From Thiorhodovibrio winogradskyi (GTDB lineage: Bacteria > Pseudomonadota > Gammaproteobacteria > Chromatiales > Chromatiaceae): DNA of 64,000 nt. Below are positions 8,484 to 34,861 of the stretch, in pieces; within the stretch, counting starts at the first letter, position 1; each line of letters opens with the position of its first letter. Location of the stretch: assembly GCF_036208045.1 (NCBI RefSeq), contig NZ_CP121472.1:186001-250000 (forward strand). Reading direction: 5' to 3'. Under the pieces are notes generated by a model. The model searched no databases. It saw nothing but the letters and a program-made list of their open reading frames with translations, and was not told where the DNA came from. Both the position numbers and the translations under genes were made by a program.

Positions 8484-8518
8484 GAAAAACCCCGCCCCGA
8501 ATGAACGGGAGCGGGGTT
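8484..8518 (-). terminator. Rho-independent terminator before higB (minus strand)
   Basis: A stem AACCCCGC/GCGGGGTT with extra inner pairs (8488-8518) is followed on the minus strand by five T. It would stop transcription entering higBA from the right. It is duplicated at 17910-17944. Confidence 0.65.
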
Positions 8519-8557
8519 GGAAAGGGTGCGTGCGTCCTTGCCCTTGCGGTCTGGGGT

Positions 8558-8620
8558 GCCGGGCTTGGCAGGTGCTGCGCCCGGCGCAGAAAACGTGGTC
8601 TGTCCCCGTTTCCCCCCCCG
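8558..8620. repeat. R3 repeat, copy ii
   Basis: It has the same string as copy i (GAAAACGTGGTCTGTCCCCG) and lies upstream of higBA. It is fused directly to an IS1111-type fragment at 8621. Confidence 0.75.
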
Positions 8621-9043
8621 ATGGCCAACAAGCTCGTGCGCATCGCCTGGGCGGTGATGACCACCGGAAAGGCCTTCGATGCAGCGCGCGGCGCGTTAGC
8701 GAAGCCGGCGACCGTTACCGCGTAACGCCTATCGGCCACGAACCATTCTGATTAACCCGCCCTTATAGGGCATCAACCGAGTTCCACACCACGAGTTGCT
8801 AAGAGTGAAAGTCACTGTAATGGCATGAAAGGCACGACCGCCTCGCTGAAAACCTGACGGGGACAGCAGCCAGCTTAAGTTGAGACTGATATACTGATTG
8901 AGGACGGCGAGGTACGCGAATTCCATTAGGGCACGGGATCGACTTCGATGATGATCCTTCAACGATGCCGGATATATGGCCGCAACGTTTCCTTCTACCA
9001 AAAACAGCGATTTTCCTCTTGCATCGCGGGGCGGACCATATAT
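8621..9043 (+). mobile_element. IS1111-type element, right-end fragment
   Basis: It begins at the 35th-last codon of the transposase (MANKLVRIAWAVMTTG) and keeps the complete right noncoding end with the inner repeat GCGGGGCGGACCAT and tip ATAT. It ends in the right half of an R2 repeat (GTCCCCAGAATTCC, 9044-9056). The left part of the IS is missing. Confidence 0.9.
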
Positions 9044-9056
9044 GTCCCCAGAATTC
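9044..9056. repeat. R2 right half next to IS1111-type fragment
   Basis: GTCCCCAGAATTC follows the IS tip directly. Confidence 0.7.
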
Positions 9057-9130
9057 CATGGGTGAATCCTTATGATGAATTCGCTTCTCGGCAGAATTGC
9101 AACCATGTCACGCCAAAGCGAGGCTTATTG
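9057..9130. pseudogene. short fragment homologous to 9439-9500
   Basis: The DNA reads CTTATGATGAATTCGCTTCT and CGCCAAAGCGAGGCTTATTG, close to 9445-9495. It is a remnant of the same lost gene, cut by IS material. No product. Confidence 0.5.
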
Positions 9131-9141
9131 CTGTTGCTGGT

Positions 9142-9166
9142 AATTAAGTATACTGTCCCTGCAATT
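9142..9166 (+). repeat. R2 dispersed repeat, uninterrupted
   Basis: AATTAAGTATACTGTCCC followed by TGCAATT. This is an unsplit copy of the motif into which the 1536-bp IS elements are inserted. Confidence 0.75.
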
Positions 9167-9426
9167 CGAGTTCCACACCACGAGTTGCTAAGAGTGAAAG
9201 TCACTGTAATGGCATGAAAGGTACGACCGCCTCGCTGAAAACCTGACGGGGACAGCAGCCAGCTTAAGCTGAGACTGATATACTGATTGAGGACGGCGAG
9301 GTACGCGAATTCCATTAGGGCACGGGGACCGCAATGCGTCCCGAGATCGATGCCGGATATATGGCCGCAACGTTTCCTTCTACCAAACAGCGATTTTCCT
9401 CTTGCATCGCGGGGCGGACCATATAT
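9167..9426 (+). mobile_element. 260-bp IS1111-type right-end piece without transposase
   Basis: It matches the IS noncoding right end from the CGAGTTCCACACCACG string to the tip ATATAT, then the R2 right half (9427-9438). Between GGGCACGG and GATGCCGG its sequence differs from the full copies and forms its own hairpin (GGGAC 9325-9329 with GTCCC 9338-9342). A 2-nt deletion lies in an A run. Confidence 0.85.
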
Positions 9427-9438
9427 GTCCCCGGAATT
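9427..9438. repeat. R2 right half
   Basis: GTCCCCGGAATT follows the IS tip. Confidence 0.7.
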
Positions 9439-9664
9439 GCTTATGATGATTGGCTTCTCGGCAAAATTGCGTCATGGCATGCCAAAGCGAGGCTTAATTG
9501 CGATGGACTCACCCAAGAGCGCGAGCAGCAGTTCTACCACATGAACCGCGCCGCCCTCGCCCTCGGCAGCGACCAGCGCAAGTTCTTGATTCAGCCACAA
9601 CCCGGAGGCCTGGGCGCTGGCGGATGCGGTGATGGAGATGGCTGCGCTAAGGGACGCCGGTTAA
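9439..9664 (+). pseudogene. C-terminal fragment of an unidentified gene
   Basis: The readable protein is YDDWLLGKIASWHAKARL, then LTQEREQQFYHMNRAALALG and SDQRKFLIQP. After a one-base frameshift it continues PEAWALADAVMEMAALRDAG and stop. The N-terminal part is replaced by IS DNA. A partial second copy lies at 9057-9130. Family not recognised. Confidence 0.5.
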
Positions 9665-9686
9665 TGCTGCCAGCGTGGCCTGCGCC

Positions 9687-10654
9687 TCAGTGGAAGATGG
9701 TCTCGGGGCTCTCGGCGCTGAGGATGCGACCCAGCCAAGTGTCGAGTTGCTCAAGCTCCGCCTGTTCGATACGCTCGCGGTGCGTTTGCACGGCCTCGGG
9801 GCCGAATTTTTGATCGAGCTGACGCAGCAATGTCCTGGCCTCGCCCTGCTGCACTCCCTTCTCAATTCCCGCTCGCTCAACAGTCGTCACGTATGGCATT
9901 TGGTATTGCTCCTCGTAGGCGTAGAGTTCTTGGCGAAATTCTGCTTCCAGCTCTTCAGGCAGACGGATCATCCAATCGATCAGGCGGAAGAGTTCTTCAA
10001 TCAGCGTGCGCTCATAGCCGCGCTCGTACATCAGGCGCATCAAGCGGAATTTCCAGCGTTTCAGGGTCTCGGCGTCATCGGTGACTTTGGCCTGAATTTG
10101 AGCCATCACCACCAGGGCAAAAACATTGTCGCTGGCTTCCAGCTCGGCCCAACGCTCGGGGGTGGTGTAGTCGAGCAGTTTGACCATTGGAAAGTCGAAT
10201 TGCACCCGACAGTCCCACAGCGCCGTGCGGTAGCTGTTGGGGCGGAAACTGCGCTTGGTATCGGCCAGCACCGCCAGACTCGCGACCGGCACTTGGTAGG
10301 CATCGCGGATTTTGTAATTGTAGGTGAACATCCGTTCAGCAAAGTCGCTTTGCGGATCACCTTGCACTTCAACATGGGCTAGCACCCACACCGGCGTGTC
10401 ATTGCGGCGGGTGAGGCCGACGAGCTTATCCGCATAGCGCCGGGTGGTCTTGGCCTCGCGCACAACCCTTAGATGGGCTTGGGCTGGAATTCCTTGTCGA
10501 GAAACTGCACGCCCTTTGACCAGTCGATCTCGGCATGGATGGCCGGGAACAGCAACTCCAGAAACTCCGGAAAGAACTGCTCCAGCGCTTCTTTCCAGGG
10601 GCTGTCGTAGTCGGGTTTGTCGCTGCTGTCGGTGGCTTGGGTGTCGGCTGTCAT
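9687..10654 (-). pseudogene. Rpn-type PD-(D/E)XK nuclease-like gene, frameshifted, copy A
   Basis: Rpn-type proteins are transposase-derived nucleases often found in several copies. The N-terminal 61 codons (10654-10469: DSPWKEALEQFFPEFLELLF) end at a stop. The rest continues in another frame from about 10480 (VVREAKTTRRYADKLVGL, ADTKRSFRPNSY, ALVVMAQI, then SPETIFH). The shift lies near the string CAGCCCAAGCCCATCTAAGG. Copy B at 26240-27219 carries the same shift, so the mutation predates the duplication. A programmed frameshift is possible but less likely. Confidence 0.75.
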
Positions 10655-10710: not shown

Positions 10711-10724
10711 GAATTAAGTATACT
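10711..10724 (+). repeat. R2 left half, split by IS
   Basis: GAATTAAGTATACT immediately precedes the left IS tip. The matching right half is at 12261-12273. Confidence 0.8.
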
Positions 10725-10823
10725 AATGGGATGGTCCGCCCCGCTCCTACAAACCCGCTGAATCAAGCAAAATAGGCTATCGACAACCATCTAATCGTCA
10801 ACCGAAGACAGCAGAGAAGAGCC

Positions 10824-11942
10824 ATGAAAAAAGCGAAGAAAAAATCCGTAAAGACGTTTAGCAAAGAACCGGTCGTCACTATTGGTATTGATTTAGCCAA
10901 GAACAGCGTACATGTGTTTGGTGTCGACGCCGAGGGTGAAGTGGTGTTCAGCCGCAAGTTGGCACGAAAAGCGTTGAGTCAGTTCATCGCCCAGCAGCCG
11001 ACCTGTCGCATCGCCATGGAAGCCTGTAGTGGTGCCCATCACTGGGCGCGCACCTTCCAGGGGTTTGGCCATGAGGTTGTGTTGATCGCCCCGCAGCATG
11101 TGAAGCCCTTTGTGAAGACGAACAAAAACGATGCCGTCGATGCCGAGGCGATTTGCGAAGCGGCGCCCTGCTCGAAAAGGGGCCCGCGTCAATTGTTCGT
11201 GCCCATCAAGAATGTTGAACAGCAAGATACCCAGGGTACCCACCGCATGCGCTCGATGGTCATTGATCAGCGCACGGCGCTGGTCAATCAGATCCGGGGG
11301 TTGTTGGCCGAATACGGTATTGTCATTGCTCAAGGGCGTGCTGAGCTTATGCGCCGCCTGCCGGACATCCTTGAAGACGCCGAGAATGGACTCAGTGAGC
11401 GGTTTCGCGCTGAATTGAATGTTCTCCTCGAGGAGTTGCGTCACATGGATACGCGGGTCAAGCATTATGATACTCAGATTCAGGCCGTTGCCAACACCAA
11501 TGACTCGGCCCAGCTGTTGATGAGCATCCCTGGCATCGGTCCGCTGGTGGCCACCGCCTTGATCGCCACCTTGGGGGAGAATTGGGGGCTGTTCAATAAT
11601 GGCCGCGCGCTGGCCGCCTGGCTGGGGCTGGTGCCGCGACAGCACTCCACCGGCGGGAAACCACGCTTGCTCGGCATCAGTAAGCGCGGTGATGTGTATA
11701 TGCGCAAACTGCTGATCAACGGGGCGCGTGCCCCTGATCTGAACAATGGGCGCTGGGTTGAGAACAAAGACGACGCCCTCAGTCATTGGGCGCGCGGTCT
11801 CAAGCAGCGCCGTCATGCCAATGTCGCCGTGGTTGCGATGGCCAACAAGCTCGTGCGCATCGCCTGGGCGGTGATGACCACCGGAAAGGCCTTCGATGCA
11901 GCGCGCGGCGCGTTAGCGAAGCCCGCGGCCGTTACCGCGTAA
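10824..11942 (+). CDS. IS110-family (IS1111 group) DEDD transposase, copy A
   Basis: A 372-aa recombinase. The RuvC-like DEDD domain is N-terminal, with Asp in TIGIDLAKNSVHVFGVD, Glu in AMEACSGAHHWA, and Asp residues in KTNKNDAVDAEAI. The transposase_20 domain follows (LLMSIPGIGPLVATALIATL, AAWLGLVPRQHSTGGK, LGISKRGDVYMRKLLING) with the catalytic Ser region. Length is normal and the frame is intact. It differs from copy B by one residue (LPDILED against LPEILED). It should act with a guide RNA made from the noncoding end. Confidence 0.95.
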   Translation: MKKAKKKSVKTFSKEPVVTIGIDLAKNSVHVFGVDAEGEVVFSRKLARKALSQFIAQQPTCRIAMEACSGAHHWARTFQGFGHEVVLIAPQHVKPFVKTNKNDAVDAEAICEAAPCSKRGPRQLFVPIKNVEQQDTQGTHRMRSMVIDQRTALVNQIRGLLAEYGIVIAQGRAELMRRLPDILEDAENGLSERFRAELNVLLEELRHMDTRVKHYDTQIQAVANTNDSAQLLMSIPGIGPLVATALIATLGENWGLFNNGRALAAWLGLVPRQHSTGGKPRLLGISKRGDVYMRKLLINGARAPDLNNGRWVENKDDALSHWARGLKQRRHANVAVVAMANKLVRIAWAVMTTGKAFDAARGALAKPAAVTA

Positions 11943-12260
11943 CGCCTATCGGCCACGAACCATTCTGATTAACCCGCCCTTATAGGGCATCAACCGAGTT
12001 CCACACCACGAGTTGCTAAGAGTGAAAGTCACTGTAATGGCATGAAAGGCACGACCGCCTCGCTGAAAACCTGACGGGGACAGCAGCCAGCTTAAGCTGA
12101 GACTGATATACTGATTGAGGACGGCGAGGTACGCGAATTCCATTAGGGCACGGGATCGACTTCGATGATGATCCTTCAACGATGCCGGATATATGGCCGC
12201 AACGTTTCCTTCTACCAAAAACAGCGATTTTCCTCTTGCATCGCGGGGCGGACCATATAT
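11943..12260 (+). ncRNA. candidate bridge RNA region of IS1111-type element, copy A
   Basis: This is the noncoding right end, identical or nearly so in all copies. A hairpin GCCCT-TAT-AGGGC lies at 11976-11988. Tract 12105-12122 (GATATACTGATTGAGGAC) contains TATACTG, identical to the R2 target across the insertion point, and GAGGAC, 5 of 6 with the complement of the R2 right half. CCATTA (12140-12145) is the complement of the left tip TAATGG, and ATATAT (12189-12194) equals the right tip. A variable hairpin sits between the last two. That IS110-family elements use bridge RNAs is established; the assignment here is inference. Confidence 0.5.
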
Positions 12261-12273
12261 GTCCCCGGAATTC
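12261..12273 (+). repeat. R2 right half, split by IS
   Basis: GTCCCCGGAATTC. Joined to 10711-10724 it restores a full R2 repeat. Confidence 0.8.
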
Positions 12274-12858: not shown

Positions 12859-14091
12859 TCAGGAAACAAAGCTACCAGCCCCGAGGGGCTGAATCAGAAT
12901 ATCGTACTTAGGCAGATCAGGATTGCGATCCAGCCGAGCTTCGACGGCTCGCATGGCTTTTTTTGTCAGAGAGATTCCTTTTTCATAGACGGTGGTGCAC
13001 AGATTCACAATCGGTTGGATGCCTTTCCAGGTCATGGTGCGCGCCCAGGCGAGCATGGTCTCGGTATCGACGAGTAGGGCGCCGTTCCAGTGCAGTTCGA
13101 GAATGCCCCAGCACCGCTCAATGGGATTGTATTTGCTGTGATAGGGTGGAAAGTAAAGCAAGTGGATGGGTTTGTTGATTTGATCAGCCCATGCCACGAT
13201 GCGATGAAGAAACTGAGAGCGTACGCCACTGCTTTCAGGCCCGTTATCGATCTTGATCTGAATCAGCGTGGTGGCCTGCCGTTCGGCAAGAGGGAGCCGC
13301 TCCCACCACGCCTGCAAGGCATCGACAATGAAGTCGCTGGTTTTTGCTGAACTTCCGAAGTGGATGGTGAGTTGCCCGGTGTCTTCATCAAGGATGCCGC
13401 AAGGGGGATGCTTTCCGTTATCGCCCATGTCGTGATCACAGGCGCGCTGGTTGCCGCGCGTTAACCCACCGCGCGAGAACGGCCCAAGTTTCACGGTCGC
13501 CTTGCAGTCAACGCTGATGCGTTTGGCGCCCAGCACTTGGTTGGCGGCGTCTTTCTTCTTGATGTTGATGAAGATATCGTTGGTCTGCGGAATCTTTTTT
13601 TTTGGCTTGGCTTTGACAACGCGACGCAAACGATACCCCAGTCGATTGAGGATTCTAGCCAGCGTGCCGCGTGCGGGCAGAGCCTCCTGCGGATAACCGA
13701 GTTCACGCAGCCGCTGGCGCGCTTGTGCCGCCGTCAGCCGGGTAAAGGCCACGGTGCTGGTGAAGCTTGGCTCCTGCTGGGCGTGCTCCTCGGCGAGTCG
13801 ACGCAAATCCGCTGCCGCTTCGGGATAGTTCTCTTCCCAGCGCTTCCTTCCAGTCGTCAAGGGCTTGGCACTCAGACACACGACTCCAGTGCGCGCCTCG
13901 CCGAGACCCGTTTCCACCATCTCGCGCCCCCAGCCAAACAGCGACTCGGCTTTTCGCGCGCTGCCTGCGCAGTATTTCAGGGTCATCTCAGCGACAAAGG
14001 CACGACGCTCGCAACCGTGCATTTTCGAGGCCGCGAATCGGATGTCCGCAACATGTTCGCAGGTGGGCAACGAGTTTGATGGTAGCGCCAT
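12859..14091 (-). CDS. ISAzo13-family transposase
   Basis: A 410-aa DDE-type transposase. The N-terminal DNA-binding half ([60 protein letters not shown]) leads into the catalytic core. The core has Asp in [27 protein letters not shown], Asp-Asn in [17 protein letters not shown] and Glu in [13 protein letters not shown]. The frame is complete. The stop lies 7 nt from the element end. It may be active, but the element is now part of a rearranged unit. Confidence 0.9.
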
Positions 14092-14660
14092 TTCTTAAAA
14101 ACTCTCCAACAATCAGAAAGGCTTCCATTATTACCCATGTTCTGAGTCAGAAAAAGCCTTCAAGAGGCTAAATTATGGTAGCTTTATTAGTTGAAATCAC
14201 CTAAAGGCCACGGTGCTGGTGAAGCTTGGCTCCTGCTGGGCGTGCTCCTCGGCGAGTCGACGCAAATCCGCTGCCGCTTCGGGATAGTTCTCTTCCCAGC
14301 GCTTCCTTCCAGTCGTCAAGGGCTTGGCACTCAGACACACGACTCCAGCGCGCGCCTCGCCGAGACCCGTTTCCACCATCTCGCGCCCCCAGCCAAACAG
14401 CGACTCGGCTTTTCGCGCGCTGCCTGCGCAGTATTTCAGGGTCATCTCAGCGACAAAGGCACGACGCTCGCAACCGTGCATTTTCGAGGCCGCGAATCGG
14501 ATGTCCGCAACATGTTCGCAGGTGGGCAACGAGTTTGATGGTAGCGCCATTTCTTAAAAACTCTCCAACAATCAGAAAGGCTTCCATTATTACCCATGTT
14601 CTGAGTCAGAAAAAGCCTTCAAGAGGCTAAATTATGGTAGCTTTATTAGTTGAAATCACC
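13743..14660. repeat. 459-bp tandem duplication within the ISAzo13-like element
   Basis: Positions 13743-14201 and 14202-14660 are identical except for at least one base (GACTCCAGTGCGC against GACTCCAGCGCGC). The join is TAA, the same trinucleotide as the target duplication, fused to internal AGGCCACGG. Confidence 0.9.
14197..14550 (-). pseudogene. duplicated N-terminal part of ISAzo13-family transposase
   Basis: It repeats the first 115 or so residues of the transposase ([19 protein letters not shown]...) with one substitution (TGVVCL to AGVVCL). It then runs into the end of the complete copy. It lacks the catalytic core. Confidence 0.9.
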
Positions 14661-24620: not shown

Positions 24621-24633
24621 GAATTCCGGGGAC
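24621..24633 (-). repeat. R2 right half, split by IS copy B
   Basis: GAATTCCGGGGAC on the plus strand, immediately before the IS tip. Confidence 0.8.
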
Positions 24634-24951
24634 ATATATGGTCCGCCCCGCGATGCAAGAGGAAAATCGCTGTTTTTGGTAGAAGGAAACGTTGCGGCCA
24701 TATATCCGGCATCGTTGAAGGATCATCATCGAAGTCGATCCCGTGCCCTAATGGAATTCGCGTACCTCGCCGTCCTCAATCAGTATATCAGTCTCAACTT
24801 AAGCTGGCTGCTGTCCCCGTCAGGTTTTCAGCGAGGCGGTCGTGCCTTTCATGCCATTACAGTGACTTTCACTCTTAGCAACTCGTGGTGTGGAACTCGG
24901 TTGATGCCCTATAAGGGCGGGTTAATCAGAATGGTTCGTGGCCGATAGGCG
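24634..24951 (-). ncRNA. candidate bridge RNA region, copy B
   Basis: This is the noncoding end after the transposase stop. Its target-like and tip-like tracts are identical to copy A, as is the variable hairpin (GGATC...GATCC). There is at least one substitution outside the tracts (CTTAAGTTG against CTTAAGCTG). Confidence 0.5.
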
Positions 24952-26070
24952 TTACGCGGTAACGGCCGCGGGCTTCGCTAACGCGCCGCGCGCTGCATCG
25001 AAGGCCTTTCCGGTGGTCATCACCGCCCAGGCGATGCGCACGAGCTTGTTGGCCATCGCAACCACGGCGACATTGGCATGACGGCGCTGCTTGAGACCGC
25101 GCGCCCAATGACTGAGGGCGTCGTCTTTGTTCTCAACCCAGCGCCCATTGTTCAGATCAGGGGCACGCGCCCCGTTGATCAGCAGTTTGCGCATATACAC
25201 ATCACCGCGCTTACTGATGCCGAGCAAGCGTGGTTTCCCGCCGGTGGAGTGCTGTCGCGGCACCAGCCCCAGCCAGGCGGCCAGCGCGCGGCCATTATTG
25301 AACAGCCCCCAATTCTCCCCCAAGGTGGCGATCAAGGCGGTGGCCACCAGCGGACCGATGCCAGGGATGCTCATCAACAGCTGGGCCGAGTCATTGGTGT
25401 TGGCAACGGCCTGAATCTGAGTATCATAATGCTTGACCCGCGTATCCATGTGACGCAACTCCTCGAGGAGAACATTCAATTCAGCGCGAAACCGCTCACT
25501 GAGTCCATTCTCGGCGTCTTCAAGGATTTCCGGCAGGCGGCGCATAAGCTCAGCACGCCCTTGAGCAATGACAATACCGTATTCGGCCAACAACCCCCGG
25601 ATCTGATTGACCAGCGCCGTGCGCTGATCAATGACCATCGAGCGCATGCGGTGGGTACCCTGGGTATCTTGCTGTTCAACATTCTTGATGGGCACGAACA
25701 ATTGACGCGGGCCCCTTTTCGAGCAGGGCGCCGCTTCGCAAATCGCCTCGGCATCGACGGCATCGTTTTTGTTCGTCTTCACAAAGGGCTTCACATGCTG
25801 CGGGGCGATCAACACAACCTCATGGCCAAACCCCTGGAAGGTGCGCGCCCAGTGATGGGCACCACTACAGGCTTCCATGGCGATGCGACAGGTCGGCTGC
25901 TGGGCGATGAACTGACTCAACGCTTTTCGTGCCAACTTGCGGCTGAACACCACTTCACCCTCGGCGTCGACACCAAACACATGTACGCTGTTCTTGGCTA
26001 AATCAATACCAATAGTGACGACCGGTTCTTTGCTAAACGTCTTTACGGATTTTTTCTTCGCTTTTTTCAT
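24952..26070 (-). CDS. IS110-family (IS1111 group) DEDD transposase, copy B
   Basis: A 372-aa protein, identical to copy A except for Glu in LPEILED. It shows the RuvC-like DEDD residues and the transposase_20 domain noted for copy A. Intact. Confidence 0.95.
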   Translation of the reverse strand: MKKAKKKSVKTFSKEPVVTIGIDLAKNSVHVFGVDAEGEVVFSRKLARKALSQFIAQQPTCRIAMEACSGAHHWARTFQGFGHEVVLIAPQHVKPFVKTNKNDAVDAEAICEAAPCSKRGPRQLFVPIKNVEQQDTQGTHRMRSMVIDQRTALVNQIRGLLAEYGIVIAQGRAELMRRLPEILEDAENGLSERFRAELNVLLEELRHMDTRVKHYDTQIQAVANTNDSAQLLMSIPGIGPLVATALIATLGENWGLFNNGRALAAWLGLVPRQHSTGGKPRLLGISKRGDVYMRKLLINGARAPDLNNGRWVENKDDALSHWARGLKQRRHANVAVVAMANKLVRIAWAVMTTGKAFDAARGALAKPAAVTA

Positions 26071-26169
26071 GGCTCTTCTCTGCTGTCTTCGGTTGACGAT
26101 TAGATGGTTGTCGATAGCCTATTTTGCTTGATTCAGCGGGTTTGTAGGAGCGGGGCGGACCATCCCATT

Positions 26170-26183
26170 AGTATACTTAATTC
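26170..26183 (-). repeat. R2 left half, split by IS copy B
   Basis: AGTATACTTAATTC directly follows the IS tip CCCATT. Confidence 0.8.
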
Positions 26184-34346: not shown

Positions 34347-34861
34347 GTGCGGCCTGGCAAGGCCGCGTGTTCTAGCGGGTTAGAGTCCCGCCTGGGTCAT
34401 CGTGAGCCGCGAGCCCAGTATCAAGTCTTGCGGCGCGAAGGGTAACTGACGCGACGATGCGTAGGCGTGAAAACAGGCGAGGTGCAAAGGTAACGGGTGA
34501 AGCCGACCCTGAAGGTGTAGAGCCCCGAAAATTACGTTGGAGAGTGCCGACGGGTTTGGCCCCCCGGCAGGCAACAATGCATGTCGCGTCACTGGTCAGT
34601 GGCATGGATACTCCCCGGGGTCCGAGGCCGTGTCGAGCCTTATATTGAGAGCACGTGGTAACCAGGGAGATCCGTGCATCGGTCCGCTGGAGGCGGGCAC
34701 CGGCGAACAAGTGTAAAAAGCGAGGACGCCGGCGGTGGTGCACGGAAGTCGGAGCCACTCGTAAGAGCGATGACGCCCGGTAATGCGGGTCGAGCATAAG
34801 GGGTGGCGGTCTGAGATAACGTGACAGTGACACACGTCCCTACGCTGAGAGGACTAAGAGC

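Follow-up and report, generated by a model that had tools for sequence, protein, structure and literature searches.

Structure and ends of the insertion sequence

The analyzed window, a 64,000-nt stretch of the Thiorhodovibrio winogradskyi genome, contains a complete insertion sequence (IS) of the IS1111 group. Its full extent, set by the subterminal repeats, is 1536 bp (10724–12259), and its flanks GAATTAAGTATAC and TGTCCCCGGAATTC join into one copy of a dispersed repeat, R2, which agrees with the sequence-only reading of a 1536-bp element splitting R2. The features of the locus are summarized in Table 1. The subterminal inverted repeats are perfect and 14 bp long, with extensions of 7 bp on the left (TAATGGG) and 3 bp on the right (ATA). 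According to the sections of PMC11187229 considered here, IS1111 elements usually carry repeats of 11–13 bp with extensions of the same 7-bp and 3-bp lengths. As is typical of this group, the noncoding region downstream of the transposase gene is the longer one: 314 nt separate the stop codon from the end of the right inverted repeat, and 79 nt lie between the left repeat and the start codon. The joined flanks equal uninterrupted R2; thus, target duplication is absent, as in other IS1111 insertions.

Table 1. Features of the IS1111-group element and related copies in the window
Feature	Position	Strand	Evidence or remark
3' IS fragment (span includes R2 right half)	8619..9056	+	Bridge RNA 8816–8980
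3' IS fragment	9167..9438	+	Bridge RNA 9205–9365; preceded by R2 copy 9141–9167 (3 mismatches)
Left half of R2 target, GAATTAAGTATAC	10711..10723	+	R2-like half beside six full copies; R2 uninterrupted elsewhere
Left IS tip TAATGGG (7-bp extension)	10724..10730	+	IS-end comparison; first T shared with target
Left subterminal inverted repeat, ATGGTCCGCCCCGC	10731..10744	+	
IS1111/IS110 DEDD transposase (recombinase), 372 aa	10824..11942	+	PF01548 and PF02371; NF033542; conserved columns
Predicted bridge RNA (seekRNA)	12013..12202	+	Outer helix 12013–12016 with 12199–12202; modelled core 12033–12197
Right target guide, CGGGGACAG	12075..12083	+	Exact complement of top-strand CTGTCCCCG
Left target guide TATACTG	12107..12113	+	Identical to top strand across insertion point
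GAGGAC, conserved scaffold, not a guide	12117..12122	+	12118–12120 pair with 12070–12072
Right donor guide CCATTA	12140..12145	+	Complement of left tip TAATGG; predicted pairing with 12035–12040
Left donor guide ATATAT	12189..12194	+	Matches right tip plus shared T
TTGCAT, -35-like	12236..12241	+	16 bp from the TATAAT that would arise at a circle junction
Right subterminal inverted repeat, GCGGGGCGGACCAT	12243..12256	+	
Right IS tip ATA (3-bp extension)	12257..12259	+	
Right half of R2 target, TGTCCCCGGAATTC	12260..12273	+	Flank comparison
Second full IS copy, in R2 (span includes R2 halves)	24621..26183	-	Bridge RNA match 24697–24861

The transposase matched both Pfam domains in a profile search and scored 353 bits against NF033542 (cutoff 140). 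A sequence search also found the recombinase structures of IS621 (2.3e-10) and ISCro4 (2.6e-10), in both cases matching the C-terminal part. The catalytic residues D23, E66, D103, D106, and S286 were each retained in 24 or all 25 of the sequences aligned; S286, part of an HSTGG motif, was conserved in all 25. The protein has the domain composition of the IS1111 group, with a DEDD RuvC-like N-terminal domain and a C-terminal Transposase_20 domain bearing the S(T)G motif. In host copies L001, L003, L005, and L006, the C-terminal domain contains a PDLNNG stretch, which is missing from the six closest relatives shown; therefore, present-day activity of the host transposase is uncertain. An additional stretch, PCSKRG or PCSNRG, follows CEAA in L001, L003, and L005 and is absent from L006. 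In plasmids, at least 5000 records matched the transposase, and all among the matches listed were below 60% identity.

Two further features of the window were recorded: a group II intron match (RF02005, 119 bits) at 34382–34630, and a 410-aa open reading frame at 12859–14091, with a partial tandem copy at 14197–14550. The 410-aa product is a putative ISAzo13-type transposase.

R2 as a REP-like target repeat

The sequence of R2 is GAATTAAGTATACTGTCCCCGGAATTC, and the IS is inserted between C and T. In the host genome (5.48 Mb), its 22-nt core was matched at 54 sites with up to 3 mismatches (0 for a reversed-pattern control), and 48 of the 54 copies are on one strand. The 27-nt repeat was found three times in the window, against a mean of 0.00 in shuffles. 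Among other genomes, the core was found eight times in G028, of the same genus, and twice in G004, of the same family as the host; a genome search of G031 found none.

A sequence search located the IS in at least 22 places in the host genome; it scored 40 of 112 first-look candidates, and the counts may therefore be low. All six full copies among the matches listed had R2-like halves on both sides, so that copies in non-R2 sites, the outcome that the sequence-only reading named as damaging to it, were not encountered among them. The right-end fragments in this genome (n = 12) were followed by TGTCCCC in seven cases and by related but different letters in five. Two copies, L004 and L005 (3.94–3.95 Mb), lie 4.8 kb apart with identical 40-bp flanks and look like one duplicated locus. 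Their left target guide is changed to TAGTCTG, yet the site is R2-like; L004 also carries an in-frame TAG. A 3' fragment at host positions 174963–175248 (L176) has R2 guides, but its right flank is TGGCCCC; the sequence after the fragment, TGGCCCCTTT, belongs to the other repeat class described below. It may reflect off-target insertion or a rearrangement.

R2 was located within 2 kb of 8 of 23 matches to PF01797 (RAYT-like), where 0.5 would be expected; 4 of 5000 circular shifts reached 8. The other 15 matches had no R2 within this distance. In two cases the offset between R2 and the RAYT-like gene was identical (137 bp). R2 is accordingly a dispersed REP-like repeat near RAYT-like genes, as judged from its genomic distribution, REP elements being short dispersed repeats linked to RAYT (Y1 transposase) genes. 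Of the tagged palindromic hairpin that a REP element mobilised by a RAYT would have, the outer arms GAATT...AATTC were recognized by eye. In three R2-rich stretches (4.40–4.42, 0.127–0.142, and 0.513–0.523 Mb of the host genome; L185, L186, and L187), the 29 sites compared all lie on one strand; their left flanks can be grouped into about seven families, and their right flanks are mostly unique. Therefore, R2 seems to form the 3' border of a variety of dispersed units, of which some include RAYT genes. Several truncated IS copies (L174–L180 and window 8500–9700) have 5' breakpoints that, by eye, lie at or beside the 3' ends of REP-like repeats, with endings such as GGAATTC, AATTC, GTTAC, and GTTTTC. 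It appears as if units ending in REP-like repeats had inserted into, or been joined to, the IS.

Conserved fold of the predicted bridge RNA

The noncoding regions of 33 elements including the host IS, picked from 70 partly for readable guides, were aligned. The consensus fold comprised an outer helix, a long helix whose sequence varies (12058–12065 with 12122–12129), a short helix closing the target loop (12070–12072 with 12118–12120), an apical helix, and a donor part. Standard pairs occupied 94.7% of the pair cells, in comparison with 77.4% in column shuffles, and doubly changed cells numbered 182 versus 56.8; neither value was reached in 500 shuffles. When the consensus structure was slid by 1 to 3 columns, pairing dropped to 30–43% (maximum 42.6%).

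A check proposed in the sequence-only reading, a covariance model search of the noncoding end, was carried out with a model of 27 relatives at no more than 66% transposase identity. This model, from which L001, L006, L120, L167, L122, and L052 (the host IS and its closest kin) were excluded, detected the RNA at 12033–12197 with an E value of 6.2e-19. The three other matches in the window each corresponded to an IS copy or fragment. In the host genome, at least 13 matches were obtained, and those listed all lie in the IS places located above; 150 of 1911 first-look candidates were scored, and this count may also be low. A search of 11943–12260 against Rfam 15 gave no family at the gathering score and none to E 5. 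In the relative L121 (Rhabdochromatium, 91%; the stretch is shared with L039), the bridge RNA region is split at about 1911–2041 by an insert of ~130 bp, whose inverted ends GGCCTTGATCA...TGATCAAGGCC were recognized by eye.

Target guides vary with the insertion site

The four tracts pointed out in the sequence-only reading (TATACTG, GAGGAC, CCATTA, and ATATAT) are all in place. TATACTG, proposed there as a target tract, holds as the left target guide. The right target guide, CGGGGACAG, had been overlooked; it lies on the opposite side of the target loop. The guides are ordered right then left for both target and donor. For the target, this is the published IS1111 order, the complement of the top strand coming first, and not the IS110 order of the earlier layout. 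The conserved fold, the target loop, and the succession of a top-strand match and a bottom-strand match correspond to those of a seekRNA.

The relation between guides and targets was evaluated across relatives. Of 152 loci examined, 92 had a near full-length transposase match, and the rest were fragments, other genes, or unmatched. Removal of 8 repeat views of own copies and of 10 loci without a recognized subterminal repeat (L039, L045, L076, L078, L092, L100, L121, L136, L141, and L182) left 74 elements. Four of these had no usable flank, and from the remaining 70, removal of targets within 4 mismatches of 14 gave 36 elements, including the host IS, with distinct targets. The combined exact match of the guides to the own site, scored with a gap window of 8–40 that was fixed after the layout of the host IS was known, averaged 14.0, versus 9.9 for swapped sites (0 of 20000 permutations), which bears out the expectation of the sequence-only reading that the target tracts covary with the target. 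The own site was strictly the best for 19 of the 36 elements, and its score was at least 13 in 26 and below 13 in 10; clear guides are not visible in every element. For the host IS, the own score was 16, tied by one swapped target. When the noncoding region was shuffled 3000 times by dinucleotides, a score of 16 for right and left guides in the published order was reached once. The earlier set of four tracts, defined post hoc, occurred in 0 of 3000.

Relatives of the element illustrate this variation. Two copies in G028 (93% identity) have R2 guides. The third G028 copy, L167 (80%), occupies the site GAACA/TGGACCCTT (insertion point at the slash), its right guide AAGGGTCCA being exact and its left guide GAACCTG having one mismatch. 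In G031, L122 (75%) has the guides AAGGGGCC and GAGCC at the site GAGCC/AGGCCCCTT, and L147 (65%) has TTACACA and GACTTG, which match its site. Thus, close relatives appear, from their changed guides, to have been re-aimed at other sites.

A repeat class represented by GAGCCNGGCCCCTTTAATT occurred 33 times in the host, 20 times in G028, and 4 times in G031 at up to 2 mismatches (control 0). It lies 81–86 bp before three PF01797 matches in the host, the genome in which the RAYT link was examined. The 22-nt target of L167 had seven matches in G028 and two in the host, each at 3 mismatches, and none in G031; the 21-nt target of L147 had no match in the three genomes. Based on these counts, the guides of L167 and L122 point to sites resembling a second repeat class, and those of L147 do not. 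The target of L147 being unrepeated, the assumption that the lineage inserts exclusively into repeats was rejected.

Donor guides follow the ends of the element

CCATTA and ATATAT, which the sequence-only reading had matched to the left and right tips, were retained as the right and left donor guides, respectively. Donor tracts matching the IS ends are a further property of bridge RNAs (seekRNAs). For the 27 distinct end pairs compared, donor matching averaged 12.0 with own ends and 9.66 with swapped ends (0 of 20000 permutations). Among the 74 elements, near-duplicates kept, the right tip ACA was accompanied by the left donor guide ATACAT in 25 of 25 cases, ATA by ATATA(T/A/C) in 32 of 33, AGA by ATAGAT in 7 of 10, and GTA by ATGTA(A/C) in 3 of 3; in single elements with the right tips TTA, GCA, and CCA, the guide does not fit. 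The matches of the right donor guide are short (4–8 nt). CCATTA is predicted to pair with 12035–12040 in a conserved helix, of which it is the 3' strand; the letters of 12035–12040 equal the left-tip part TAATGG, and this helix would have to open for donor binding. In 65 of 73 elements, the left tip and the right flank begin with the same base, which is what a shared core base would produce.

Alternative explanations

The insertion into R2 might be explained by a transposase protein that itself reads the repeat, with coincidental RNA-like tracts. The individual matches (6–9 nt) are indeed weak singly, and the shuffle and swapped-target results given above for the host IS leave some space for coincidence. 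However, the guides vary with 36 distinct targets on a kept scaffold, including in the close relatives L167, L122, and L147, which makes this explanation extremely unlikely. The conserved structured region might instead control the transposase gene, as a regulatory RNA or an attenuator; the transposase of ISPpu9 is regulated by two small RNAs, as reported in the part of PMC8450116 considered. Since the letters of the loops follow both the insertion site and the ends of the IS, for which a regulator has no reason, we find it very unlikely that the region is a regulator instead of a guide. The RNA may have an additional regulatory role alongside guiding.

That the R2 halves are ends of the IS, as terminal repeats or duplications, could be suspected from the nearly identical letters flanking the six full copies. 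It is next to impossible, because the R2 core is uninterrupted at 54 places, and L167, L122, and L147 combine other flanks with IS ends identical or almost identical to those of the host IS. An exceedingly improbable alternative concerns the layout of the guides. The sequence-only reading had assigned the right half of the target to GAGGAC, giving a left guide (TATACTG) 5' of the right one, as in the IS110 type. GAGGAC adjoins TATACTG and is complementary to GTCCCC except for one of its six letters. However, it is kept in relatives with unrelated targets and is largely paired in a conserved scaffold helix, and it was rejected as the right target guide; in addition, an exact 9-nt tract is available in the IS1111 order, and the IS110 order gave a weaker gain (11.6 for own sites versus 9.8 for swapped sites).

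At the level of sequence, then, the ends of the IS, the transposase family, the repeated R2-like insertion, the RNA fold, and the covariation of the guides with target and donor are demonstrated, and it is highly probable that the 3' noncoding region of this complete IS1111-group element encodes a bridge RNA (seekRNA) that guides insertion into R2. Weighing against it are the elements whose own site scores low or is not strictly best, the tie for the host IS, the altered left guide of L004 and L005, the L176 fragment, the right-end fragments lacking TGTCCCC, the short and internally paired right donor guide, and the PDLNNG stretch of the host transposases. The earlier proposal, in which a natural guide RNA of the IS110 family carries both target and donor tracts and is directed at a family of short repeats, is supported in its essentials by the copies in R2-like sites, the covariance model match, and the covariation with targets and end pairs.

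Proposed mechanism and comparison with known systems

When joined, the ends of the IS give TTGCAT, a 16-bp spacer, and TATAAT, the -10 box spanning the joint. We infer that the ends would join into a circle whose junction forms a promoter, and the junction transcript would be processed to the bridge RNA, which the recombinase would carry. CGGGGACAG and TATACTG would recognize R2, CCATTA and ATATAT in the donor part would pair with the circle junction, and strand exchange at the shared T would integrate the IS in a single orientation and leave the target unduplicated.

The element itself is new; the guide-RNA mechanism was published in 2024, with the position, guide order, programmability, and natural redirection of IS1111/IS110 guide RNAs described in the portions of PMC11187229 and PMC11208160 covered here, on which the following comparisons are based. 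The host IS shares with ISEc11, ISKpn4, ISPa11, and ISPst6 (Siddiquee et al., 2024; PMC11187229) the transposase type, the 7/3 subterminal repeats, the RNA in the 3' noncoding region, a top-strand match located 5' of the bottom-strand match, and overlapping matches in the target. A junction promoter, reported for ISEc11 and predicted here from sequence, and the lack of target duplication are also common to them. Natural redirection between relatives was described there for ISEc11/ISXne4 and appears to have occurred here among relatives of the host IS. The host IS differs from the ISEc11 group in its target, R2, and in its host. Donor guides and their covariation, derived here from sequence, are not part of PMC11187229 as far as covered. 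The bridge RNAs of Durrant et al. (2024; PMC11208160) are likewise two-loop RNAs with left and right target and donor guides and donor letters in a multi-loop. In that work, IS1111 bridge RNAs were predicted in the right end, where the RNA of the host IS is found, whereas in IS110-group members such as IS621 the RNA is mostly in the left end. The IS110 type also has the reverse order of target guides (PMC11187229), in contrast to right then left in the host IS.

REP elements are the targets of IS621 (PMC11208160), and the host IS targets REP-like R2. Insertion of IS110-family elements in REP repeats was described in 2006 (Tobes and Pareja, 2006; PMC1525189, in the part considered): ISPa11, ISPpu9, ISPpu10, ISRm19, and IS621 share with the host IS a fixed insertion point in a dispersed short repeat, which in the host IS lies near RAYT-like genes. 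A literature search gave nothing specific to the host IS or its host group among the matches listed and no paper combining 'purple sulfur' and 'IS1111'.

Visual inspection leads to a wrong guide assignment, which the analysis sets right. The donor guides and the shared core base follow the IS ends across the 27 distinct end pairs. The element and its relatives form a natural series, in which transposases 65–100% identical and one scaffold are combined with at least four different guide sets, and this series distinguishes the letters that are replaced for a new target from those that are retained. To a further interpretation we give slightly less than an even chance: the IS lineage may live on the repeats of another mobile system, its bridge RNA being re-aimed between RAYT-associated classes (R2 and GAGCCNGGCCCCTTTAATT) within one family while the transposase, scaffold, and donor guides are kept, so that guide turnover would track the repeat landscape of the host.
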